Virus record (IMG/VR): IMGVR_UViG_3300006749_000174
Span: 1 to 21,305 of that record
DNA length: 21,305 nt
DNA from: a virus
Direction: 5' to 3' (one strand)
Part shown: piece by piece, positions 4,395 to 15,142 of the stretch
Layout of the letters: every line of letters starts with the position of its first letter
Position numbering within the stretch: the stretch's first letter is position 1
Made by a program: the position numbers and the translations under genes
The notes under the pieces: model-generated
What the model was told of the DNA's origin: nothing
Seen by the model: the letters and a program-made list of their open reading frames with translations, nothing else
Database searches by the model: none

Positions 4395-5796
4395 CTGGTG
4401 TTTGTCCTTCAACTTCTGTTGTTGTAAATTGTCCTCTTACAGTTCTTGTACTATCAATCTCATCATTAATAGTTTTAATAACATCATTATCATCTATTAC
4501 TGCTTCTGCGATTTGTTTATCAAGTTCTTTGTTAAAAGTTTCTGATCTAATGCCACTAGCTTTTGCCATTTGTAAAAACTGTAAATCATTTGCCCAATCT
4601 CTTATATCAAATGTATCTGGGTAATCTACTTTACCGTCCCATTCTTTGTCTTGCCATGTTGAAAACAATGTCCAAATATGTTCTTCTGCATTTTCTAAAT
4701 AATCTGCCTTTTCTGATAACCTTGCATTCAATAATTGAAACTCTGTTTGTAATGCTATACCACTTGCAATCTGTCCACTTGTTGCTCTAACAGAACCCAT
4801 GTGAGTAATCCTATCAATCGCATCAATTTTATTTTGAATACATTTCATAATACCATCTAAATTTTGTCCGCTCGGTTGAATAATATATGGTTTTAAACTT
4901 GGCTCTAAATCATCTGGCATTTCTATAATACTACCAGCACCAGCACTTGCTTCTACATTTGGTGTTTTAACTAAACTTGGGTGATTCGCTAATCTAATTA
5001 ATTGTTCTTTTTCAGAATAGTCATTGTAAATAGATTGTTGCAAAAATGCAACATCTGCTAAATCACTAATACCAATAGGTCGTTTAGCACCTCGCAAATT
5101 ATAAACATTGACTGCTGGAATCTTACCAATTGGATTTGCTATTTCTTCAATTAATCTTGCATCGCCATCAGCATATTCTTTATCGTAATCTGGTACTTCG
5201 TATGTTGCTATTGTTTCTTCTGTGAAAACTTTTAATATTGCTCTTTCATGGTTTATATCTTCAACTATAACTAAAAAATCTAAATAGAATCTTCCGCTTG
5301 ATGCTCTTTTATAATTCCAATTAACAACATTTTCTGGAGTATAAATTGACATGTAAGGTCTAATGTCTTGTGATAATTCTTCTGCTCTAGTTTTTAAATT
5401 TGTTTGTGGCTTATCAATAACTACCCAACAGTTACCATATATACTTGCATTCATTTGTACTTCTCTCATAACAGTATCAAATGATCTGCCATCCAAATCA
5501 GCATCAACTAAAAAAGATTCAAGTTGTTGATCGCCATCTAATGTTCCATAATCTCTAGTAGGTGGTACTCGCCATAAAAAACTTGTATAAATTTGAACTA
5601 CGTTTTTACAATGATTGTCAACAGGTGTGTGTCTAATTCTTTGATCGTACTCTTCTGGAGTTTCTAAAATATATCTATGTAAATAATATCCATTCTTATA
5701 ATCGTTGCCACCTAAATAACTACGTATATAAAATTCCCAATTAGAAATATTTGCATGCCACAATGGGTGCTTTGCTTTTAATGTTTTACTGTCCAT
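4372..5796 (-). CDS. Portal protein
   Basis: 474 residues counted from ATG 5796. That start is favoured because GAGG lies 8 nt upstream and the start overlaps the terminase stop as TGATG; a GTG at 5805 would add three residues. The N-terminal part (HPLWHANISNWEFYIRSYLG, DNHCKNVVQIYTSFLW) and the middle (PVNVYNLRGAKRPIGISDLA-like stretch, DYSEKEQLIR, then a GSVRATSGQIASGIALQTEF region) match the portal layout of wing, stem and crown in phages with DUF4055/SPP1-type portals. The C-terminus is acidic (EVEGQTPDGEETES). It forms the dodecameric DNA gate. Position directly after the terminase large subunit supports the call. Confidence 0.85.
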   Translation of the reverse strand: MDSKTLKAKHPLWHANISNWEFYIRSYLGGNDYKNGYYLHRYILETPEEYDQRIRHTPVDNHCKNVVQIYTSFLWRVPPTRDYGTLDGDQQLESFLVDADLDGRSFDTVMREVQMNASIYGNCWVVIDKPQTNLKTRAEELSQDIRPYMSIYTPENVVNWNYKRASSGRFYLDFLVIVEDINHERAILKVFTEETIATYEVPDYDKEYADGDARLIEEIANPIGKIPAVNVYNLRGAKRPIGISDLADVAFLQQSIYNDYSEKEQLIRLANHPSLVKTPNVEASAGAGSIIEMPDDLEPSLKPYIIQPSGQNLDGIMKCIQNKIDAIDRITHMGSVRATSGQIASGIALQTEFQLLNARLSEKADYLENAEEHIWTLFSTWQDKEWDGKVDYPDTFDIRDWANDLQFLQMAKASGIRSETFNKELDKQIAEAVIDDNDVIKTINDEIDSTRTVRGQFTTTEVEGQTPDGEETES

Positions 5797-7010
5797 CAAC
5801 TCCACCTCGTTGGAGGGTTTGGTTTAAAATCCCTACGTAAAGGAAAATTATACTCTATCATGTATCCTAACGCATCATTAAAATGGTCATAGCCACTATC
5901 TTTATCAGGCACATGTGTTCCCTCTTTGTATATTTGTCTTTCTATGCTTTTTATCACATTTTTACAAGAATTTAAAATAAACAAAGTATGTAGTCCTTTT
6001 GCATTTTTTAATTTAGCATTTACAGAATTTATTCTATCTCTAACTAATGGTGCTGAATTTTTACACTTAACTTCAAAACCAGCATTTTTTAAAATAGCCA
6101 AATCAGTCAAGCCACCAGCAGATGTTTTTCTTTGTCTAGCACTTGGGTCTGGGTAAATCACAATATTTTTTTTGTACCTTTGTTTTATTTCATCAACCAT
6201 TTCATTTGTATTTGATGACCATATTTGTATTTCATCTATAACATATATCTTATCTTTTTCTATAACGCAAACAACAGCACACATTGGATCGACATTAAAA
6301 TCTAAACCAATATGCAATGTTAAAATTCTATTTTTAAATCTTTCAATTAAATTTTTATTTCTATCAAAATTATAGTAAATCATTCCAGAATAATTTACGA
6401 ATGATGCTAAATATTCTTGCTGAAAAGTTCTTTCGTCTAAATCATCTTTTGCTTGTTCTATTTCTTCTGGTGGTACTTGCATACCCTCTAACGTAGTATA
6501 TTTAAAACTTTTCCATTCTTTATCAGATTGTCCTTTAGTAAATAAATCATACGACCAGTTACCAAAACCACGTGGTGTACCACAAAATAGTGCATGCCCT
6601 TGCGTGTCACTTAATGTTGGTCTTAATACTTCGTACCATGCTACAGGATTAATGTCGCTAAACTCGTCCATAACTAAAAAATCTAATCCAACTCCACGCA
6701 AACTGTTTTCATTATCAGCACCACGTAAGGATATTTTTGATTTATTCCTTAATGTAACTGTCAAATCAGAATTATTAATATCTTCAATCCACTTGTGAGC
6801 TCGTAACCTTTGTACAAGTTCAGTCCAACATATTGATTTAGCTTGTCTATAAGTAGGTGCTACATACCATACTTTTTTGTTTGGAAACCTTGCAAATCTA
6901 GCAAGTTCATTAATTGCAAGGAATGTTTTACCAAATCTTCTACCGCTAATTAATATACGGAATCTTGACTTATCTGTTATTACTTCTGCCTGTGGCTTTG
7001 TATATGGCAT
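5796..7010 (-). CDS. terL: Terminase large subunit (packaging ATPase-nuclease)
   Basis: 404 residues. The ATPase domain has Walker A ISGRRFGKT (21-29), Walker B LDFLVMDE (109-116, catalytic Glu116) and a CGTPRGFGN coupling motif (143-151). The RNase H-like nuclease domain has GLDFNVDP (D237, D241), YPDPSA (D288) and YDHFNDALGY (D375, D379), the expected acidic metal ligands. All key residues are present and the length is normal. The product packages concatemeric DNA through the portal and cuts it. It starts immediately after the small-subunit stop (TAA then ATG) and overlaps the portal start. Confidence 0.95.
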   Translation of the reverse strand: MPYTKPQAEVITDKSRFRILISGRRFGKTFLAINELARFARFPNKKVWYVAPTYRQAKSICWTELVQRLRAHKWIEDINNSDLTVTLRNKSKISLRGADNENSLRGVGLDFLVMDEFSDINPVAWYEVLRPTLSDTQGHALFCGTPRGFGNWSYDLFTKGQSDKEWKSFKYTTLEGMQVPPEEIEQAKDDLDERTFQQEYLASFVNYSGMIYYNFDRNKNLIERFKNRILTLHIGLDFNVDPMCAVVCVIEKDKIYVIDEIQIWSSNTNEMVDEIKQRYKKNIVIYPDPSARQRKTSAGGLTDLAILKNAGFEVKCKNSAPLVRDRINSVNAKLKNAKGLHTLFILNSCKNVIKSIERQIYKEGTHVPDKDSGYDHFNDALGYMIEYNFPLRRDFKPNPPTRWS

Positions 7011-7343
7011 TTATGTCAAATCTGGATTCCATGGTAGCGGTTCGCTCTCCTCTGATGTTTCCATTTTATCTTTCATGCCTAGATAATTTTTAGATAACCA
7101 TATCAACATAGTAGTATTACCACGCATAGCTTTATCAAACATTGCTCTTCTCAATGACCTTTTGCCCTTATCCCATCCCTTTTTTATAGGGGGGTCAAAA
7201 TTACGTTTTAGAGTACTTACTGACACTCCACAGAAGTTTGCTATTTCTTCTCGAGTACATTGCATTGTTGCTAATTTTTCTACGTCTTCCAACGAATATG
7301 GTAGTTCTTTTTTAGGTCTTCCTACTTTTTTCTGTGTGTCCAT
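7011..7343 (-). CDS. terS: Terminase small subunit (DNA-recognition)
   Basis: 110 residues. It begins with an AT-hook-like VGRPKK (7-12) and has a helix-turn-helix at about 30-50 (TREEIANFCGVSVSTLKRNF), followed by helices (KGWDKGKRSLRRAMFDKAMRGNTTMLIWLSKNYLGMKDK) typical of oligomerising terminase small subunits. 'MLIWLSKNYLGMKDK' is a strongly recognised terS signature. The short acidic/Pro tail probably contacts the large subunit. AGAGG lies upstream of ATG 7343. It directly precedes terL. It would bind the packaging initiation site, which is often near this gene; none is identifiable by eye. Confidence 0.9.
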   Translation of the reverse strand: MDTQKKVGRPKKELPYSLEDVEKLATMQCTREEIANFCGVSVSTLKRNFDPPIKKGWDKGKRSLRRAMFDKAMRGNTTMLIWLSKNYLGMKDKMETSEESEPLPWNPDLT

Positions 7344-7393
7344 TCAATCCTCTTTCCCCTGAGTATAGGTATTATTTACTTAATTTTGACTTT

Positions 7394-8164
7394 TTACACT
7401 TTTTTTTTCCTTTGGTCAATTAAACGAACTTCGGGATATTTTCCTTTTGATTTTGTATTTCTTTTGCAAAACATTGGAAAAGTTTGTAACAACCATTTGA
7501 CTGCAGTTTCTTCATATTCAACAGTTCTATAATTTTGTATCCCACCTTTTTCAGAATAATATTTAGTTTTCGGTGCAACATAATTAAATCTAGTTACACC
7601 ACCATCAGCCATGTAATATCTTATTGATCTTTCAAAATCTTCTTTACCATACTCTGGGTTTGTTGATACGTATGCTTTTTTATCATGGTTATTTCGCCAT
7701 CCATAAAAACAAGCAACAATATATTTTAAATTAAAAGTAACATTATTTTTCATAAAATATGGGTTAATTACAGGATTTACTCCCCACATGTCTATTTTTT
7801 TGTCGAGTGATATTGTAAATGCATTATCTACAAATTCAGTCAAACTGTTTAATTGTATTGTATTTTTATCATCAACTTTCATTGCCACTAAATCAATGTC
7901 ATCATCAATACCTAATATAAGTTCATCTTCCTTGTAATAATCTACAATAAAATTACGTTGTGTGTTGACGTGTTTTGTGTTGCTAACAATTATATTTACA
8001 GGATAATCTTTTAAATTTTCTCTATATGCTTGTTCTTCATTAGGATTACTCAAAAATATATCCACTTTTGACATGTCAATATCTGTTTGTTTTAAGTAAT
8101 TTAATGTTTTTTTTGTAATAGTTTCCGCTCTTGATATTGATGGTATTGCTACTCTAAAATTCAT
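7394..8164 (-). CDS. TET/JBP-associated glycosyltransferase (GT-A fold), predicted DNA-base glycosyltransferase
   Basis: 256 residues. The N-terminus VAIPSISRAETITKKTLNYL (5-24) is a GT-A Rossmann start. It is followed by NTQRNFIVDYY (67-77) and the metal/nucleotide-sugar motif LILGIDDDID (82-91, DDD at 87-89). A late 'MADGGVTRFN' and 'YEETAVKWLL' region fits the acceptor half. The layout matches the glycosyltransferases found beside phage TET/JBP genes (TAGT-type), which add sugar to hydroxymethylated bases in DNA. It overlaps the dioxygenase gene as ATGA, so the two products are made together. There is no membrane anchor or signal peptide, which argues against a cell-envelope glycosyltransferase. 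The sugar and base are not determinable here. Confidence 0.78.
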   Translation of the reverse strand: MNFRVAIPSISRAETITKKTLNYLKQTDIDMSKVDIFLSNPNEEQAYRENLKDYPVNIIVSNTKHVNTQRNFIVDYYKEDELILGIDDDIDLVAMKVDDKNTIQLNSLTEFVDNAFTISLDKKIDMWGVNPVINPYFMKNNVTFNLKYIVACFYGWRNNHDKKAYVSTNPEYGKEDFERSIRYYMADGGVTRFNYVAPKTKYYSEKGGIQNYRTVEYEETAVKWLLQTFPMFCKRNTKSKGKYPEVRLIDQRKKKV

Positions 8165-9072
8165 TTATTTTTGATCCTTTCAAGTTCTTCTTCGGCACTA
8201 CCACATTCAGTCATTTTTTCTCTAAAATATGCAACTATTGATATTCTTTCAGCATTTCCGATAGGTTTGATTTCAGTATTTCCGTGTAATTCATGTACGT
8301 CAAAAAAAGCTATATCACAACTTCTAACATCAACTCCAACACCATATTTCGGTATTATAGTATAAGCACCTTTATAATCCCCAGCCTGTAATACTCCAAG
8401 ATTACCGAAACCAGCTTTTAAATCTCCAGCATCATAATGACAGGCAGTCCTAAAATTTTTATTTACTGTAATTGTAGTAAAAGGTGTTTGAGGTATTTTA
8501 AAATCTACATGAGTTTCTTCCCATGCCTTTTTTTGTGCTTTGTATCTATCTGGTATGTATCTGGCAAATAAATCGCCAATATATTTTACGTAAGGTAATG
8601 TTTTTTTATATTCATCAAAATATTTACGAGTAAACTCTGTTGTTCTGCAATATGGTATTCTTGAGTATCTATCAGCATAACCTACGATTGAACTATAAAC
8701 TGCTTTTGCTTTTGGCGAGTTTGATAAAGTACCATCTTTTTTGAGTGGGTAAAATCTATTACCTTGTACTTTTCCTACAGTTAAACCATCAATTTTATCG
8801 CCCATTTTGAGTTCTGGTGGTAAAGGACCTGCTGCTTGTCCACGATTATTAGATAAATATGTTGCTTTTCTAAATGATTTATATGCCTCTAAAGCAATTT
8901 TTTGAGGAATAACATTTTTTAAAAATACGAGTAATGTTTCGCCTTTTTCATTTTTAACAATAGTATCGCTATTTATTACAGGATATTTCAGATAAGATTC
9001 ATCTAAAAAGTTGCCATGTAATTGCCTGACTTGTTCTTCTGATAATACAGGATTAGCTTCTATTGTTCTCAT
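8161..9072 (-). CDS. TET/JBP-family 2-oxoglutarate/Fe(II) dioxygenase (predicted 5-methylpyrimidine hydroxylase)
   Basis: 303 residues. The double-stranded beta-helix core begins TPFTTITVNKNFRTACHYDAG (about 196-216), with the iron ligands H212 and D214. 'GNLGVL', 'GAYTIIPKYGVGVDVRSCD' and 'FFDVHELHGNTEI' follow, with the distal His (H263, less likely H260). The 2-oxoglutarate-binding Arg is R276 in NAERISIVAYFRE. This strand and motif order, especially 'HYDAGD' and 'HELHGN', is that of phage TET/JBP enzymes, which oxidise the methyl of 5-methylcytosine (or thymine, as JBP does) in DNA. The N-terminal 130 residues include a 'NRGQAAG' segment also seen in that group. It is sandwiched between a ParB-domain gene (20-nt overlap) and the glycosyltransferase (ATGA overlap). 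All catalytic residues are present. Confidence 0.85.
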   Translation of the reverse strand: MRTIEANPVLSEEQVRQLHGNFLDESYLKYPVINSDTIVKNEKGETLLVFLKNVIPQKIALEAYKSFRKATYLSNNRGQAAGPLPPELKMGDKIDGLTVGKVQGNRFYPLKKDGTLSNSPKAKAVYSSIVGYADRYSRIPYCRTTEFTRKYFDEYKKTLPYVKYIGDLFARYIPDRYKAQKKAWEETHVDFKIPQTPFTTITVNKNFRTACHYDAGDLKAGFGNLGVLQAGDYKGAYTIIPKYGVGVDVRSCDIAFFDVHELHGNTEIKPIGNAERISIVAYFREKMTECGSAEEELERIKNK

Positions 9073-9661
9073 TTTCGATAGCTTTATACACAGTATCAGT
9101 CAAATTATTTGTATTGTATTTTTCTTGAAGATTCTCAATCATAGCTTTAAATTTAGGCTCTGATTCAGAATTTAAAAATAATTGAATCATTCTTACTTGA
9201 GAGGGTATAAAATCCTCAATGTTTGCCTCATTACTTTCCATTCCTGATTGTTCTGGACTTACAAATAAAGGATCATCTTGATTAAATATTCTATTCAGTT
9301 CATTAGTTTCAAATCCTAAACTTTCCAAATCAAACTCTTGTTTTTGCAAATCTAATAATTCAAGATTTAATAATTCGTTATCCCACTGTGACTCTTCTGC
9401 AACACGATTATCTGCTATACGATATGCTTTGACTTGGTTTTTTGACAAGTTATTTGCAATGATTACCGGGACTTCTTTCATTCCTAATTTTATCGCCGCT
9501 TGGTATCTTGTATGCCCTACAATAATAACATGCTCATTATCTACCACTATTGGTTGTTGAAAACCAAACTCTTTTATAGAACTTGCAACTTTGTCAACAT
9601 GTTGATTTTTTCTTGGATTTCTTGAGTACGGAACAATTTTATCTATTTCTATATTTTGCAT
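9053..9661 (-). CDS. ParB/Srx-type nuclease-domain protein of the DNA-modification cassette
   Basis: 202 residues. The ParB N-terminal domain has VPYSRNPRKN (10-19) and VGHTRYQAA (48-56, the GxxR nucleotide-binding motif). It is followed by 'VKAYRIADNRVAEESQWDNE' (77-96) and 'LESLGF'. That second segment is what follows the ParB domain in phage and prophage ParB-methyltransferase fusions. Here no methyltransferase follows. Instead there is an acidic linker and a C-terminal 'SQVRMIQLFLNSE...NLTDTV' module (154-191). No obvious HTH like that of chromosomal ParB is present, so direct parS binding is not expected. In TET/JBP clusters ParB-domain proteins are recurrent and thought to act as DNA-targeting or nicking/NTPase partners. 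It overlaps the dioxygenase start by 20 nt. Confidence 0.82.
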   Translation of the reverse strand: MQNIEIDKIVPYSRNPRKNQHVDKVASSIKEFGFQQPIVVDNEHVIIVGHTRYQAAIKLGMKEVPVIIANNLSKNQVKAYRIADNRVAEESQWDNELLNLELLDLQKQEFDLESLGFETNELNRIFNQDDPLFVSPEQSGMESNEANIEDFIPSQVRMIQLFLNSESEPKFKAMIENLQEKYNTNNLTDTVYKAIENENNRS

Positions 9662-9663
9662 AA

Positions 9664-10506
9664 TTACCTGTATTCGTTTGCCATTCCTAAATCTTCTATG
9701 GCTTGTTGTTTTGTTATTTTACCTTTTCTGATACCCATATCAATTATATCTTTGTTTCTTATAGCATAATCTTTAATAAATCTTGTTACTTTTTTATCCT
9801 TAATAGCATCAATAAACATTTTTATTCTTTCATCATCTCTATTAACAACACCGAAAGTTTGGTATTTATCTGGTATATCTTCTTCCCATCTTTTATCTTT
9901 TAACCATTTACTAAAATGTGGAATAAATTTTTTTTCCTCTGTATTAGAGCATAATTTATTATAGCCCATAACAATAGTATCATCATCAGTAGTTTTTTTT
10001 GCTATTTTATATTGCTCGTATGCTCTAAACTTACTTCCTCTTTTATTGTATAATCTTCCCCATACATTATCGAACTCCTTTGTATATATGGTAGTAGTAG
10101 AGGTAGGGGTAGGGGTAGAGGTAGGGGGGTTATCGTTGGGTTTTTTTGGACGACCACCTAATTTACCATTTGCTTTTGAACTATCAATTTTCTTGGTAAT
10201 ATATAAATATTCTTGAAGTTGTCTTTCGTTTTGCCAATGAGAATTATTTATTAATCTAAAATTTTCTCCTAAAACTTTTGCACAAGTTTTTTGTTCTTGT
10301 TCATTAAAAGCCATAGCAACTCTAAAAATTAATTCTTTTTCATCTGGTATGCCTTTGCACCTTTTATTCCAATTCCAACATAATAATCTAATATAAATTC
10401 CTAATGCCTCGTTGGTCATATGCTGAGTACCAGCTATAAAATCTTCGGTAAATAAATACCATGCTTTTAGTTTTTCTTTAGGTTTCGAGCTCTCGTCTAT
10501 AAACAT
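9664..10506 (-). CDS. DUF1376-type phage replication protein (DnaT/O-like)
   Basis: 280 residues from ATG 10506, chosen because GGAGG sits 5 nt upstream; an in-frame ATG at 10518 starts inside that ribosome site. The N-terminal domain (KAWYLFTEDFIAGTQHMTNE, EALGIYIRLLCWNW) is the DUF1376 winged-helix pattern found in phage replication initiators and helicase loaders. Then comes an AT-hook-like LGGRPKKPND, a Pro/Thr/Ser linker (PPTSTPTPTSTTT), and a C-terminal 'FDNVWGRLYNKRGSKFRAYE' to 'FIPHFSKWLKDKRWEED' domain like that following DUF1376 in replication proteins. It may load a host helicase. The linker is written by a G-rich tract on the opposite strand. It is adjacent to the ParB-domain gene in the same operon. 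Confidence 0.75.
   Translation of the reverse strand: MFIDESSKPKEKLKAWYLFTEDFIAGTQHMTNEALGIYIRLLCWNWNKRCKGIPDEKELIFRVAMAFNEQEQKTCAKVLGENFRLINNSHWQNERQLQEYLYITKKIDSSKANGKLGGRPKKPNDNPPTSTPTPTSTTTIYTKEFDNVWGRLYNKRGSKFRAYEQYKIAKKTTDDDTIVMGYNKLCSNTEEKKFIPHFSKWLKDKRWEEDIPDKYQTFGVVNRDDERIKMFIDAIKDKKVTRFIKDYAIRNKDIIDMGIRKGKITKQQAIEDLGMANEYR
10102..10129 (+). repeat. G-rich GGTAGGGG-type tract (possible G-quadruplex former)
   Basis: The top strand has TAGGGG-like units: G4 at 10106-10109, G4 at 10112-10115, GAGG at 10118-10121 and G6 at 10124-10129, in an otherwise AT-rich genome. On the coding (bottom) strand it encodes the Pro/Thr/Ser linker of the DUF1376 protein. Four G-runs with 2-3-nt loops could fold as a two- or three-layer quadruplex in the non-template strand; not demonstrated. 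Confidence 0.45.
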
Positions 10507-10729
10507 TATTGCCTCCATATTTCATTTGTTTATAAAATTTCACTGTATATTCATCAACTTTTAAATCAAAATCATCTTCTGAGAAATCATTATTATTTAA
10601 AAATTCATCAGTTACTTTTGTTATTGCTTTGTTTTGTGCCTTAACCCATAAACCCATAAATGAGTCAGCTTCCTTTGGGTCTTTTGGTACGATAAATGTT
10701 TGATTGTGAACTTTGACGACGTGGGACAT
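10478..10729 (-). CDS. Small hypothetical protein between nuclease and replication genes
   Basis: 83 residues, soluble, slightly acidic in the middle (NNNDFSEDDFDLKVDEYTVKF), with no recognised domain. It begins MSHVVKVHNQTFIVPKDPKE and ends YGGNNVYRRELET. It overlaps the VRR-NUC 3' end by 65 nt and its own 3' end overlaps the DUF1376 start by 29 nt. Its last codons contain that gene's ribosome site. The long overlap with the upstream gene is unusual but both frames look protein-like. A replication accessory role is only suggested by the neighbours. Confidence 0.55.
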   Translation of the reverse strand: MSHVVKVHNQTFIVPKDPKEADSFMGLWVKAQNKAITKVTDEFLNNNDFSEDDFDLKVDEYTVKFYKQMKYGGNNVYRRELET

Positions 10730-11072: not shown

Positions 11073-11102
11073 AGGGGGAATCTAACCTAAAACTCCCCCT
11101 AT
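11071..11102 (-). promoter_or_regulatory. Hairpin enclosing the VRR-NUC start codon
   Basis: ATAGGGGGA (11071-11079) and TCCCCCTAT (11094-11102) are perfect inverted repeats around a 14-nt loop. On the leftward RNA the second arm ends in ...CCCCCUAU with the AU of the AUG start codon (11072-11070) paired. A GGGGGAG purine tract is in the first arm and AGG is in the loop. This could sequester the start or, as DNA, serve as an operator. Confidence 0.55.
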
Positions 11103-11104
11103 AT

Positions 11105-11133
11105 GTAGTGTAAACTATGGAGGCATACACTAC
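11105..11133 (-). promoter_or_regulatory. Second leader hairpin
   Basis: GTAGTGTA (11105-11112) and TACACTAC (11126-11133) are perfect 8-bp inverted repeats around a 13-nt loop, only 2 bp from the hairpin at 11071-11102. On the leftward RNA the loop presents UGCCUCC, an anti-Shine-Dalgarno-like sequence. Both hairpins lie downstream of the leftward promoter and so would be in the 5' leader. Confidence 0.5.
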
Positions 11134-11171
11134 GGAAGCTAATTACTCCTAAGAAAAGAAATAATATTCAT

Positions 11172-11200
11172 ATTTTATGATGATTTTTAGCAATAATCAA
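11172..11200 (-). promoter_or_regulatory. Leftward sigma70-like promoter for the nuclease/replication/modification operon
   Basis: Read on the bottom strand: TTGATT (11200-11195), a 17-nt spacer, then TAAAAT (11177-11172), which are 5/6 matches to TTGACA and TATAAT at ideal spacing. Transcription would start near 11165, giving a leader of roughly 93 nt that contains both hairpins before the VRR-NUC start. A TGATGAT repeat touches the -10 side of the spacer. Confidence 0.6.
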
Positions 11201-11239
11201 GGTTTTTAAGAGTTTTTTTTATGACGATTTTTTGACGAT
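11178..11239 (+). repeat. TGAYGAT direct repeats at helical spacing
   Basis: TGATGAT at 11178-11184, TGACGAT at 11222-11228 and TGACGAT at 11233-11239. The offsets are 44 and 11 bp, multiples of one helical turn. The first two copies share a longer context (TTTTATGAYGATTTTT). The array spans the leftward promoter spacer and the likely rightward promoter region, as expected for sites of a regulator or a replication initiator. Confidence 0.5.
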
Positions 11240-11278
11240 AATGGTAGTCAAAACCCAAAAAAAGAAGTAGGTTTTAAA

Positions 11279-11299
11279 AATAATAATAATAATAATAAT
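11279..11299 (+). repeat. (AAT)7 microsatellite upstream of GGAGG
   Basis: Seven AAT units directly precede the GGAGG of the first rightward gene. Shorter AATAAT runs precede the GGAGG of the genes at 11762 and 12584. They probably form an unstructured A/U-rich leader that helps ribosome binding. Confidence 0.6.
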
Positions 11300-11309
11300 G
11301 GAGGCTAAA

Positions 11310-11603
11310 ATGACACATAACCTAAACACTCAAACTTTTTCTTTTGAAGGTAAAACTTTTAAGAAAGGTGTTGATTCATACAACTTTTCTGATGCTATGT
11401 TTATTATTGAACGATCAGAAAAAACATTAATCTCTTACGTTGATGATAACAAAAAAATTGTTCATCATGGCGAGATACCTAACCCAGCCGATTATCTTGA
11501 AGATGATAATAGAATACTTGTAAGCAAACGAGGTAAGGCTCTTGGTTGTATTATTTATTTAGGAGTAAATGATGAGAGATTGGGATTAAAAAATGATTCA
11601 TAA
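11310..11603 (+). CDS. First gene of rightward operon, hypothetical
   Basis: 97 residues from ATG 11310, set by GGAGG 5 nt upstream; the ATG at 11298 lies within that ribosome site. The protein is soluble, with short beta-like stretches (TQTFSFEGKTFKKGV, KTLISYVDDNKKIVHHGEIP, RILVSKRGKALGCIIYLG) and no recognised domain. As the promoter-proximal gene with a very strong ribosome site it is probably an abundant early product. The 3' end overlaps the next frame by 11 nt. Confidence 0.7.
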   Translation: MTHNLNTQTFSFEGKTFKKGVDSYNFSDAMFIIERSEKTLISYVDDNKKIVHHGEIPNPADYLEDDNRILVSKRGKALGCIIYLGVNDERLGLKNDS

Positions 11604-11793
11604 ATTATTTAAAAAAACCCAAAAAATATCAATCATAGAAAATGGTAAAGTTAATTATTATTTTAAATTAACTTTTTTAAATAACGATACTGCTGTTTTT
11701 GATAACAGTGGTAACGAAGTAATGAGTAGTAAAGTAATCAATAATAATAAGGAGGCAAATAATGTTATTACTTACCCAAGCACAAAAAAATAA
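11593..11793 (+). CDS. Possible small hypothetical protein overlapping the DUF2958 start
   Basis: 66 residues. The first 48 look protein-like (KKTQKISIIENGKVNYYFKL, TFLNNDTAVFDNSGNEV). The end runs through the AATAAT/AAGGAGG leader of the next gene and into its first codons, giving NNNKEANN. The Shine-Dalgarno is poor (GGGAT about 8 nt upstream). It fills an otherwise gene-free gap of about 160 nt in a compact operon, which favours it being real. No function recognised. Confidence 0.45.
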   Translation: MIHKLFKKTQKISIIENGKVNYYFKLTFLNNDTAVFDNSGNEVMSSKVINNNKEANNVITYPSTKK

Positions 11794-12118
11794 ATTAATA
11801 AAAAACCATAAAGCACAAGATGGTACAAAAGAGTTTAAAGCAGAGGTAAAACTTTTTAATCCAACAGGTGTCGGTACATGGTATTTATCTGAACTTGATC
11901 CAGAAACAAATGTTGCTTTTGGATTGTGTTGTATTCATGAAGAAGAACTAGGATATGTTAGTCTTGATGAATTATCAGAGTTCAAAGGACGATTCGGTTT
12001 AGGTATTGAAAGAGATAAATATTTTATTTCTAAATCTTTTGAAGAATGTAAAAAAAAAGAAACTTTGATGAAAGATGACGACATCACTGATCCTTTATGG
12101 AGTAGTAATGAAAAATAA
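11762..12118 (+). CDS. DUF2958 domain protein
   Basis: 118 residues. Starting MLLLTQAQKNKLIKNHKAQD, it has the DUF2958 pattern in order: 'VKLFNPTGVGTWYLSELDPE' (about 29-48), 'FGLCCIHEEELGYVSLDELSEF' (53-74) and 'GLGIERDKYF' (79-88). The family is common in phages, plasmids and conjugative elements, often near anti-restriction or DNA-processing genes; its biochemical function is unknown. AAGGAGG lies 5 nt before ATG, preceded by an AATAAT run. The 3' end overlaps the next gene by 11 nt. Confidence 0.85.
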   Translation: MLLLTQAQKNKLIKNHKAQDGTKEFKAEVKLFNPTGVGTWYLSELDPETNVAFGLCCIHEEELGYVSLDELSEFKGRFGLGIERDKYFISKSFEECKKKETLMKDDDITDPLWSSNEK

Positions 12119-12563
12119 AAAAAATAAATTATTTCCCTATGGCTATGAACGTAGGGAAGTAATCGGATATTCTATGGATAAGGATAAAACACCTCTCTAT
12201 AGAATTACTAGAATTATGCCTAAAGAAAAAAGTGGATTTAAAAATTTCTTTAGAGTATCAATAGCTTTGCTTCTAATATGTGGTGCTATACTGTTCCTTG
12301 CAAGTTGTAGCACCGCACCAATAGTAGATAGTAGAGGCAAGAGCTCGGCTAATATTGAGGGGAATGCCGAGCGATATCATGATGATTATTATACATGCGT
12401 TGCTTTAGTTGACGATCATACCAATAAGGTAGTCGATACTAGTAAAGTAGTTTATAATAAACTTCGTTGGCGAGTATTATGGCTTTCGCCCAAATTAAAT
12501 ACTAAACAGGATTTGATTAATAATTGTTTAGAGGGAAGAGGCTATAATGTTCTTAACAAATAA
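12108..12563 (+). CDS. Membrane-anchored / lipoprotein-like protein with CLxGRGYxVL ending
   Basis: 151 residues from ATG 12108 (GGAG 5 nt upstream). A frame open to 12075 has no comparable ribosome site. There is an unusually long basic N-region (1-50), then a hydrophobic stretch VSIALLLICGAILFLASC (50-67) ending in a lipobox-like LASC (64-67). After Cys67 come APIVD (70-74), YHDDYYTC (90-97) and C140-LEGRGYNVL. The PIVD...Y..D...C...CLxGRGYxVL pattern reminds me of small bacterial outer-membrane lipoproteins with a glycine zipper, but the zipper is absent here. It could be a lipoprotein or an inner-membrane protein with a cytoplasmic N-terminus. A role in envelope change or superinfection exclusion is speculation. 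Confidence 0.65.
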   Translation: MKNKKNKLFPYGYERREVIGYSMDKDKTPLYRITRIMPKEKSGFKNFFRVSIALLLICGAILFLASCSTAPIVDSRGKSSANIEGNAERYHDDYYTCVALVDDHTNKVVDTSKVVYNKLRWRVLWLSPKLNTKQDLINNCLEGRGYNVLNK

Positions 12564-12583
12564 TAATAATATAGGAGGAAAAT

Positions 12584-13030
12584 ATGGTAGCAATCGTAGA
12601 TAAATGCTTCGATAATACTAAAGATGGTGCACCCAACTACGCAATAGATTTAATTGATGGTACTAGATTATATGCTAGAGGATCAGTTTTAAATCCAATG
12701 CCACAGAAAGGCGATGCCATCGACTATACTGAAGTAAATACTAAAACTTCAGCAAATGGTAATCAATACACCAATGTGAAAGATGTTTCTATATCAGCAC
12801 CACCAAACTTTGATGATGATATAAACCAAGTACAAACATCACAAACCACAAGCACAGTTACAAATGGTACTATGAAAATCACTGATGTACAAACTCGTCA
12901 GAGAATGGACATATTTGTAACAGGAGTTGTTGGTCGTTCAATGGGTAGTGGTCATTTTAGTGTTGATCACATTGAGGACTTAACTAAAAATGCAGTAAAG
13001 GCATTTGATGAGTTCCTCAAAAATAAGTAA
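12584..13030 (+). CDS. Putative single-stranded-DNA-binding / OB-fold-like early protein
   Basis: 148 residues. The N-terminal 75 residues (MVAIVDKCFDNTKDGAPNYA, LYARGSVLNPMPQKGDAIDYTE, ANGNQYTNVKDVSI) have the strand pattern of an OB fold, with 'KGDxIxYxE...NGxxYxNVKDV' recalling SSB-type ends. Then comes a Gln/Thr/Ser-rich flexible linker (about 80-95) and a C-terminal helical segment that is basic rather than carrying the acidic SSB tip. The operon context (HNH nuclease and exonuclease downstream) fits DNA metabolism. Strong AGGAGG ribosome site. The call is tentative. Confidence 0.5.
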   Translation: MVAIVDKCFDNTKDGAPNYAIDLIDGTRLYARGSVLNPMPQKGDAIDYTEVNTKTSANGNQYTNVKDVSISAPPNFDDDINQVQTSQTTSTVTNGTMKITDVQTRQRMDIFVTGVVGRSMGSGHFSVDHIEDLTKNAVKAFDEFLKNK

Positions 13031-13307
13031 AAACTACAAAAAAATCTTTAGTGATTATTGGGGATATCGAGGTCAAGATGTCCCCATGTGTTGGGGTTGC
13101 AATATGCAAATAGCAGTTGATATCCACCACCTAGTTCCTCGTGGTTTTGGAGGAAGTAAAAAAAATTTAAGAAACACTATTGATAATCTCATACCATTGT
13201 GTCGTCCATGCCACATGATAGCCGAAAGAGATAAGTTTTTTAATGAAGAATTAAAAATAAAATTAAAAAATAAAATAGCAGAAAAGGAGTTTGAAGAAGA
13301 TGAGTGA
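13005..13307 (+). CDS. HNH endonuclease
   Basis: 100 residues. A zinc-supported beta-beta-alpha HNH core: CWGC (C29, C32), DIHHLVPRGFGGSKKN (H41-H42, N54), then NLIPLCRPCHMIAE (C66, C69, H70). All metal and catalytic residues are present. The C-terminus is Lys/Glu-rich helix. It is stand-alone, not inside an intron or intein that I can see, so a DNA-processing, recombination or packaging-related role is as likely as homing. It starts within the end of the preceding gene (26-nt overlap), with AAAGG upstream. Confidence 0.85.
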   Translation: MMSSSKISKNYKKIFSDYWGYRGQDVPMCWGCNMQIAVDIHHLVPRGFGGSKKNLRNTIDNLIPLCRPCHMIAERDKFFNEELKIKLKNKIAEKEFEEDE

Positions 13308-13656
13308 TATATATTCACTAGATTTTGAGCCAAATAAATTATCACATCAACAAGAGCAATTAGGATTAGTTTATGCTGATGAAGATACAGCAGTCGATTT
13401 AATGAAAAAAGAAGAAAAAATGTTAGTAGCAGAATTAACGGTATATTATTCTCAGAATACGAGTTATAAAAATACTTCTGAATTAAATGCACATATTTAT
13501 TCGGATAAAAGATTTAAGGACTTTGCTGACAGATACGGCAAAACCTTAAAAAGTAGGAATCGTTCTAAAATTAGATACGAAACTTACAAAACTTTCAGAG
13601 AAGACTTAAGAACTAAAGTCGTCAATGAAAGAGAGTTAGTCAAAAGAAACTTATAG
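13300..13656 (+). CDS. Hypothetical basic early protein
   Basis: 118 residues from ATG 13300 (AAGGAG about 10 nt upstream). A TTG at 13291 is in frame but sits too close to that ribosome site. The N-terminus is acidic (DEDTAVDLMKKEEKM). The C-terminal half is helical and basic (DRYGKTLKSRNRSKIRYETY, KTFREDLRTKVVNERELVKR), suggesting nucleic-acid contact. The HNH stop overlaps it by 8 nt. No family recognised. Confidence 0.65.
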   Translation: MSDIYSLDFEPNKLSHQQEQLGLVYADEDTAVDLMKKEEKMLVAELTVYYSQNTSYKNTSELNAHIYSDKRFKDFADRYGKTLKSRNRSKIRYETYKTFREDLRTKVVNERELVKRNL

Positions 13657-13669
13657 AAAGGAGTTATAC

Positions 13670-13867
13670 ATGGCTAGTCAAAACACAAGAATACTAGATT
13701 ATTTAAAATCTGGTAAAAAGTTAAACCCTTTACAAGCATTAGAAAAGTTTGGTTGTTTCAGATTAAGTGCAAGAATACTTGATTTACGACAACAGGGTAA
13801 TGCAATCATAACAACAAATGTTACTCGAAAAGGTAAAACTTTTGCCGAGTACTCACTAATGGAGTAA
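13670..13867 (+). CDS. Small helix-turn-helix protein (HTH_39-like)
   Basis: 65 residues forming a single winged-helix-like unit: SQNTRILDYLKSGKKLNPLQ (3-22), then ALEKFGCFRLSARILDLRQQ and a short wing, GNAIITTNV...KGKTFAEYSL. This is the phage HTH_39 pattern, which I recall well. Strong AAGGAG ribosome site. A small DNA-binding regulator or recombination accessory protein; the TGAYGAT repeats in the control region are possible targets, but nothing in the sequence links them. Confidence 0.75.
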   Translation: MASQNTRILDYLKSGKKLNPLQALEKFGCFRLSARILDLRQQGNAIITTNVTRKGKTFAEYSLME

Positions 13868-13869
13868 TC

Positions 13870-14130
13870 ATGAGCATAAAAGATAAAGAGTATTTCAATA
13901 TTAGTGATCAACAAATCGCTGATATGGAAGATGGGTTGGATTTAGATAAGATGAGAGCCTTTGATAAACACAATGAAGATATCAAAACTATGCAACTTAC
14001 TAAATTTGGTCTTGAACATTATATCAAACGATTCGGTAAAGAGAGTAACATCTACGAAAAATGTAAAGAATTGATTATAGAACTTGATAACAACATCAAT
14101 CATACCGAAAACTATAAGGATTTATTATGA
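13870..14130 (+). CDS. Hypothetical acidic early protein
   Basis: 86 residues, helical and charged (ISDQQIADMEDGLDLDKMRA, TKFGLEHYIKRFGKESNIYE, KCKELIIELDNNIN). No domain recognised, and no membrane segment. GGAG lies 6 nt upstream, only 2 nt after the preceding stop, and the 3' end overlaps the next gene as ATGA. It is probably cotranslated with its neighbours in the DNA-metabolism operon. Confidence 0.65.
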   Translation: MSIKDKEYFNISDQQIADMEDGLDLDKMRAFDKHNEDIKTMQLTKFGLEHYIKRFGKESNIYEKCKELIIELDNNINHTENYKDLL

Positions 14131-14357
14131 CTTTAGATCAAGCAATAAAAATACAAAGCACGATTGATGGTCGTGCTATTGCAGTTGATACTCTAGAATT
14201 TTTAGATCAAACGCATTACTCAAGATCAAAAGAAGAATGGATTAGATTTGGAGATATGCACCTTGATCATTTTTTTAGAGTCTTTCAAAATGAGGCGAGT
14301 CATATAACTAAAAATGATATAAAATCTTTAATAAAAGAAGTTATGGAGGAAAAGTGA
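14127..14357 (+). CDS. Hypothetical small early protein
   Basis: 76 residues, mixed charge and helical (DQAIKIQSTIDGRAIAVDTL, RSKEEWIRFGDMHLDHFFRV, DIKSLIKEVMEEK). No family recognised. AAGGAT lies upstream of ATG 14127, and the start overlaps the previous stop (ATGA). Its last codons contain the GGAGG of the exonuclease gene. It may be a partner of that enzyme, on position only. Confidence 0.6.
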   Translation: MTLDQAIKIQSTIDGRAIAVDTLEFLDQTHYSRSKEEWIRFGDMHLDHFFRVFQNEASHITKNDIKSLIKEVMEEK

Positions 14358-15142
14358 TTGAACATTTTAAGAAGTTTGATGCCGAGGGTGTTAAAAGTAT
14401 TTTACCCTTGTCATTCAGTCAAATAACAGACTTCGCTTTCAATAGAGAGCGATGGGCATTACGCAGAATATTTGGGTATGAGTTTCCATCTTCTGCGGCA
14501 GCAGAACGAGGCAAAGCAGTAGAATCTGGTTTAAACATGGTATTGAATGGACTAGATCATGAAGTTGCTATTGTTAAAATGCATGAGGAGTTTGATGCTA
14601 ACGTCAAAAGATTTAACGATCCTAAAACTCAAGATGAAAAAGAAAAATTAAATTTTCTTTTTTTTAGAGGGATTGAAGAATTTAAAGATAAATCTCTGAC
14701 ATGGAATCTTACAGGATATCAAGAAAAGATCGAGATTGATATTCAAGGCATACCTTTGATTGGTTATACTGATTTTAAATTTGAAGATAAAAATACAAAA
14801 GAAGATTTTTATATTGATTTAAAAACTACAGGTAGAAAACCATCTGGGGTATCTATGGCTCATGCCATGCAACAATCAATTTATCAAAAAGGCACTAATG
14901 CAAATCAAAAATTATGGTATTTAGTTGGTAAAAAAACAGGTGCAGATTTTTATGATTTTAGCATTGATGACTATGATACACCATTCAAAGTATGTGAGCA
15001 GATTGTTTGTGCTATGGGAAACTACCTTAAATCAGTAAATACTCTTGATGATGTTAAAAATACACTTGTTCCAAACCCAGATGATTGGATTTGGCGAGAA
15101 GAAGCTCTTGTAAAGGCAAGGAAAGAGATTTGGGGGTATTAG
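14354..15142 (+). CDS. RecB/Cas4-like PD-(D/E)XK exonuclease
   Basis: 262 residues with a GTG start (GGAGG 4 nt upstream; GTGA overlap with the preceding stop). The N-terminal 'LPLSFSQITDFAFNRERWAL' (18-36) is the Cas4/AddB-type entry helix. It is followed by ERGKAVESG (51-59; the usual His is replaced), IGYTDFKFED (136-145, Asp140), FYIDLKTTGRKPS (152-164, Asp155 and Lys157) and QQSIYQKG (173-180, the QxxxY motif). The catalytic set of the RecB nuclease family is complete. I see no Cys cluster for a 4Fe-4S centre, unlike true Cas4. Likely role: DNA end resection for recombination or degradation of host DNA. Last gene of the rightward operon. Confidence 0.82.
   Translation: MIEHFKKFDAEGVKSILPLSFSQITDFAFNRERWALRRIFGYEFPSSAAAERGKAVESGLNMVLNGLDHEVAIVKMHEEFDANVKRFNDPKTQDEKEKLNFLFFRGIEEFKDKSLTWNLTGYQEKIEIDIQGIPLIGYTDFKFEDKNTKEDFYIDLKTTGRKPSGVSMAHAMQQSIYQKGTNANQKLWYLVGKKTGADFYDFSIDDYDTPFKVCEQIVCAMGNYLKSVNTLDDVKNTLVPNPDDWIWREEALVKARKEIWGY

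Follow-up and report, generated by a model that had tools for sequence, protein, structure and literature searches.

A ParB–TET/JBP dioxygenase core with an exchangeable tailoring gene beside the terminase of a marine phage: a candidate route to glycosylated 5-hydroxymethyluracil

The locus described here raises the question of which DNA base is altered by a phage TET/JBP dioxygenase that is encoded together with a ParB-domain protein and a glycosyltransferase. It lies in the window, the whole stretch of DNA that was analysed, which is a linear IMG/VR virus record of 21,305 b with 32% G+C and a fragment. The three contiguous reading frames run in the order ParB - dioxygenase - glycosyltransferase, all on the minus strand, and overlap by 20 bp (ParB/dioxygenase) and 4 bp (dioxygenase/glycosyltransferase) (Table 1). 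The trio is confirmed far above chance, at the positions and in the order of the initial annotation, whose motifs (H212/D214, H263, R276, DDD at 87-89 and GHTR from 49) are all found as numbered there. Further upstream, the minus-strand genes for modification and replication diverge from plus-strand genes (11298-15142) at an intergenic stretch (11073-11297) that is likely a promoter region.

Table 1. Features of the modification locus and its borders in the window.
Feature	Position	Strand	Remarks
ParB_N-domain protein	9053..9661	-	202 aa, GHTR at 49-52; constant upstream partner of dioxygenase
TET/JBP-type 2-oxoglutarate/Fe(II) dioxygenase	8161..9072	-	303 aa; H212, D214, H263, R276; proposed base-edge R284
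TAGT-family GT-A glycosyltransferase	7394..8164	-	256 aa, DDD 87-89; exchangeable tailoring gene
Exchangeable slot, dioxygenase stop to terS start	7344..8160		817 bp in window
Terminase small subunit (terS)	7011..7343	-	PHROG 309, 1.2e-10; downstream border of the slot
Terminase large subunit	5796..7010	-	Terminase_6N + Terminase_6C; 56% identical to HTVC112P TerL
DUF1376 / primosomal-like replication protein	9664..10518	-	PF07120 38 bits; PHROG 9327 primosomal protein; upstream border

The trio is syntenic in L002 (identical proteins) and in L003, L005 and L006 (92-98% identical proteins), and the order ParB - dioxygenase - X - terS recurs in IMG/VR contigs and in Pelagibacter phage HTVC112P. 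Since TerL (56%), portal (53%) and presumed capsid protein (67%) are related to those of HTVC112P at these identities, the host is likely a SAR11 bacterium. Adjacency to the terminase is conserved in the lineage and also seen in actinophages; from the position next to terS, on which the initial annotation based its proposal of modification just before packaging, a coupling of the modification to packaging is thinkable.

The assignment of the dioxygenase to TET/JBP holds by profile as well as by predicted fold; a profile placement elsewhere, which would have refuted the initial annotation, was not seen. The protein scores 86.5 bits against Tet_JBP (PF12851; curated cut-off 34.9), and H212, D214, D217, H263 and R276 are invariant in an alignment of 48 sequences (A1), with H212, D214 and H263 as Fe ligands and R276 as the 2-oxoglutarate arginine. 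A structure model built from 48 relatives (mean pLDDT 94.7) aligned with TET2 at Z 21.5 (VIA-align; 256 residues aligned, 3.4 Å) and with NgTET1 at Z 19.7, while the best entry outside TET/CMD1 reached Z 14.2. This likeness is visible by fold search only, as a PDB sequence search with the dioxygenase or its profile gave no TET match. A scan of genome contigs for the dioxygenase found no relative. In public records, phage TET genes also appear as 'SNF2 DNA repair protein', 'DnaJ chaperone' or 'queuine tRNA-ribosyltransferase' (L082:7599-8507, L160, L161, L162; Nigel-type mycobacteriophages).

Both partner proteins bear out their proposed families. The glycosyltransferase scores 51.2 bits against TAGT (PF20691; cut-off 27.5), and the motif residues D87 and D88 are invariant. 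A structure search with its model (pLDDT 75.9, with weak stretches at 132-139, 197-211 and the C-terminus) returned GT-A enzymes, TarS and TarP first, which upholds the predicted GT-A fold and agrees with a 2026 study that sets TAGT beside the GT2 family (PMC13216743); the characterised TAGT action, in phage T6, is on a cytosine-derived base (PMC13216743), a point against thymine as the substrate. The ParB protein scores 41.9 bits against ParB_N (PF02195; cut-off 26.3), matches a ParB-like PHROG and carries GHTR as a GxxR-type motif. Each core locus with sequence available upstream of the dioxygenase also has a ParB gene, which makes it a steady partner.

ParB and the dioxygenase form a conserved core, but the third gene is exchangeable, so the "three-gene cassette" of the initial annotation is not one fixed unit. 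Contigs with flanking genes that are 88-100% identical differ in what the slot before terS contains. Where the dioxygenases are 92-99% identical, the slot holds different TAGTs, an FkbM or another class I methyltransferase, or GT-B-like proteins with weak matches only; in more distant relatives it holds kinases, such as the lone P-loop kinase of L018-L020, or an ADDT set (GATase, GNAT, ADDT and kinase). Three pairs illustrate the exchange: L012 and L013 (dioxygenase 97%, terS 100%, terL 98% identical) carry a TAGT and a methyltransferase plus TAGT, respectively, with a best match of 45%; L009 and L010 (dioxygenase 96%, ParB 99%, terS 100% identical) hold unrelated genes; and L024 and L025 (dioxygenase 99% identical) carry c32 plus c33, both without Pfam match, and a TAGT. 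Another slot (L014:3262-5463) combines a TAGT with a HAD/kinase-like protein (EcbF-like phosphatase part) and a cytidylyltransferase-like protein, and Synechococcus phage S-CBWM1 (L162:3729-7921) has a similar run of TET, TAGT, phosphatase, nucleotidyltransferase and APH-kinase-like genes; these sets suggest a made-to-order activated group for DNA. In many ADDT operons (L098:6625-7500 and similar), GATase and GNAT are separated by an additional gene that matches Amidoligase_2 weakly; in Arthrobacter phage Ottawa, a clear Amidoligase_2 and a GATase lie upstream of the TET.

As the substrate, the initial annotation had named 5-methylcytosine (5mC) or thymine. Our data favour the thymine arm because the lineage has no detected C5-methyltransferase and its relatives sit with thymidine-hypermodification genes. 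To our knowledge, the published biochemistry of phage TETs has been on 5mC, and it could be argued that the cassette acts on 5mC from the host or from an undetected phage methyltransferase, giving glycosylated 5hmC. We regard this as unlikely. It is in line with the known phage TET activity and with the pairing of published phage TET systems with a C5-methyltransferase, as given in PMC12730594 (citing Burke et al. 2021), and D217 is common to the lineage and the C5-methyltransferase clade. However, C5-cytosine methyltransferase (PF00145) was found in 0 of 50 records with a relative of the window's dioxygenase, many of them short, among which are complete HTVC112P, complete Nonlabens phage P12024L, two 160-kb contigs, a 31.9-kb contig whose dioxygenase is 95% identical and a 30.7-kb contig. 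The window record, itself an incomplete 21-kb fragment, has none either, but the rest of the phage genome could encode a methyltransferase. The search itself works, since it was positive in 41 of 41 Melnitz-type TET records, a contrast that is essentially one clade against another in collections gathered by sequence similarity. On the host side, 7 of 50 SAR11 genomes, many of them incomplete single-cell genomes, have a C5-methyltransferase over the cut-off and the other 43 do not, so that host 5mC would not be a dependable substrate. Besides C5-methyltransferase and TET, Melnitz-type phages (L163:6269-8090) encode a homologue of the slot's P-loop kinase as well as a 427-aa protein that matches no Pfam family; the slot kinase was dropped as a marker for thymine because of this homologue in phages that possess a C5-methyltransferase.

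The association with ADDT also argues against 5mC. Characterised relatives of ADDT act in thymidine hypermodification, and the ADDT of L032 (PF18724) matches ViI-type phages at about 1e-21. A search with this ADDT alone gave 43 loci, of which 37 have a relative of the dioxygenase upstream and the other six have <1 kb of sequence upstream of ADDT; these loci were fetched by ADDT, and 37/43 does not show how often a dioxygenase is accompanied by ADDT. Their full-length dioxygenases are 46-73% identical to that of L032. In records fetched independently of ADDT, it occurs in 8 of 30 non-Melnitz and in 0 of 20 Melnitz-type records, and seven of eight large-phage contigs with the dioxygenase have it as well. 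In Caulobacter phage Cr30, TET and ADDT are a few genes apart. ADDT is absent from the near-identical longer records L002 and L006 and present in relatives such as L032, and in the dioxygenase tree (FastTree; support 0.974 for the core plus P12024L) the window's TAGT clade is surrounded by ADDT operons, some of which are interspersed with it. Thymine is thus proposed from relatives whose dioxygenases are 46-62% identical to the window's. Thymidylate synthase, to whose family the usual source of 5hmdU belongs, was found in 0 of the 50 related records, including L002 and L006, and judged by gene content the dioxygenase appears to take the place of the nucleotide-level hydroxymethylase, supplying 5-hydroxymethyluracil (5hmU) from thymine in DNA. 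For Rhodococcus phage Tonitrus, with ParB, Tet-like, ADDT and kinase genes, thymidine hypermodification with a TET-like gene has already been suggested in its annotation (PMC11955845).

The clades also differ at position 284 of the dioxygenase, which is Arg in 102 of 102 sequences without a methyltransferase (core and large phages), Asp or Gly in 51 of 51 methyltransferase-clade sequences and Leu in seven actinophage TETs, some of which adjoin ADDT. D217 was rejected as a residue telling the clades apart, being identical in both. By motif register rather than coordinates, we take R276 to correspond to TET2 R1896, Y282 (+6) to Y1902 and R284 (+8) to H1904 and NgTet1 H297; in the TET enzymes, the +6 and +8 residues stack on and contact the base. 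On this alignment, R284 is proposed as a base-edge residue.

Taken together, we consider it probable that the locus is a post-replicative operon for decorating DNA bases, leading from thymine via 5hmU to a glycosylated, base-J-like and protective hmU. The dioxygenase would hydroxylate the 5-methyl group of thymine in phage DNA, and the TAGT enzyme of the slot would add a sugar to the 5hmU hydroxyl. The ParB-domain protein probably recruits the dioxygenase to phage DNA or spreads it along that DNA, and the modified base would protect the DNA from restriction enzymes. The wider scheme, in which ParB-guided thymine oxidation is followed by a slot-set decoration (sugars, methyl-bearing groups, phosphate or amino acids) and the route to glycosylated 5hmU is JBP-like, has in our view an even chance of being right.

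Two further readings carry little weight. It is very improbable that N6-methyladenine or another methylated base is the substrate of the dioxygenase and that the slot enzymes have a different target: Nonlabens phage P12024L does have an N6/N4 methyltransferase adjoining TET and TAGT, and fungal CcTet, crystallised with 6mA DNA, is among the matches, but the annotation of HTVC112P shows no methyltransferase of this kind near its cassette, and the oxidation product of 6mA is unstable and hard to glycosylate. The least credible reading is that the trio leaves DNA unmodified and that the targets of its dioxygenase and glycosyltransferase are a protein, tail or surface glycan. GT-A and FkbM enzymes serve surface glycans too, and among solved structures TarS/TarP come closest to the glycosyltransferase model, but the TET/JBP fold, the ParB partner, the ADDT swaps and the conserved neighbours all argue against it.

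Direct oxidation of thymine by phage TETs, a step otherwise known from base J, is what this lineage points to, because no cytosine methyltransferase was found in any of its records examined and thymidine-hypermodification genes are its neighbours. If true, this would place base J chemistry in a bacterial virus, together with a modular platform for altering DNA chemistry. Iyer et al. are said to have predicted, in 2013, that TET/JBP products serve as starting points for further modification. In a limited literature search, we did not find the marine lineage, its missing C5-methyltransferase, the exchangeable slot or the prediction of glycosylated hmU described. The slot swap suggests that phages of abundant marine bacteria leave the oxidising core in place and alter the decoration of their DNA by exchanging a single gene. 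Such a pattern would be consistent with an arms race against defences based on restriction or base sensing. As cultured phages exist (HTVC112P with FkbM, P12024L with TAGT, Cr30 with ADDT), the question is accessible to a direct test.

Among known systems, the Burke-type C5-cytosine system of Methylophilales phage Melnitz shares with the window a TET/JBP dioxygenase and, on the reading proposed here, a hydroxymethyl pyrimidine and post-replicative action, and published examples of this type also feature glycosyltransferases. In contrast to the window lineage, Melnitz has a C5-methyltransferase that overlaps the TET gene, and its dioxygenase is about 24% identical to the window's, with Asp in place of R284. 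Thymidine hypermodification in ViI (Salmonella) and M6 (Pseudomonas) resembles the lineage in the proposed 5hmU intermediate and in ADDT, which occupies the same slot in relatives of the window; however, 5hmdUMP is made there before replication by a thymidylate-synthase homologue, whereas the lineage has a dioxygenase and, in the records examined, no such gene, and the window itself carries a glycosyltransferase instead of ADDT. Rhodococcus phage Tonitrus and mycobacteriophage Bane2 follow a like logic, with a Tet-like gene at a near-terminase site, but this gene adjoins ADDT and a kinase where the window has a TAGT, and their dioxygenases are distant (that of actinophage Ottawa is 26% identical). 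Finally, kinetoplastid base J, made by JBP1/JBP2 and the J glucosyltransferase, parallels the chemistry proposed for the window, hydroxylation of thymine followed by glycosylation in DNA; that system is eukaryotic, with a J-binding domain and a different glucosyltransferase.
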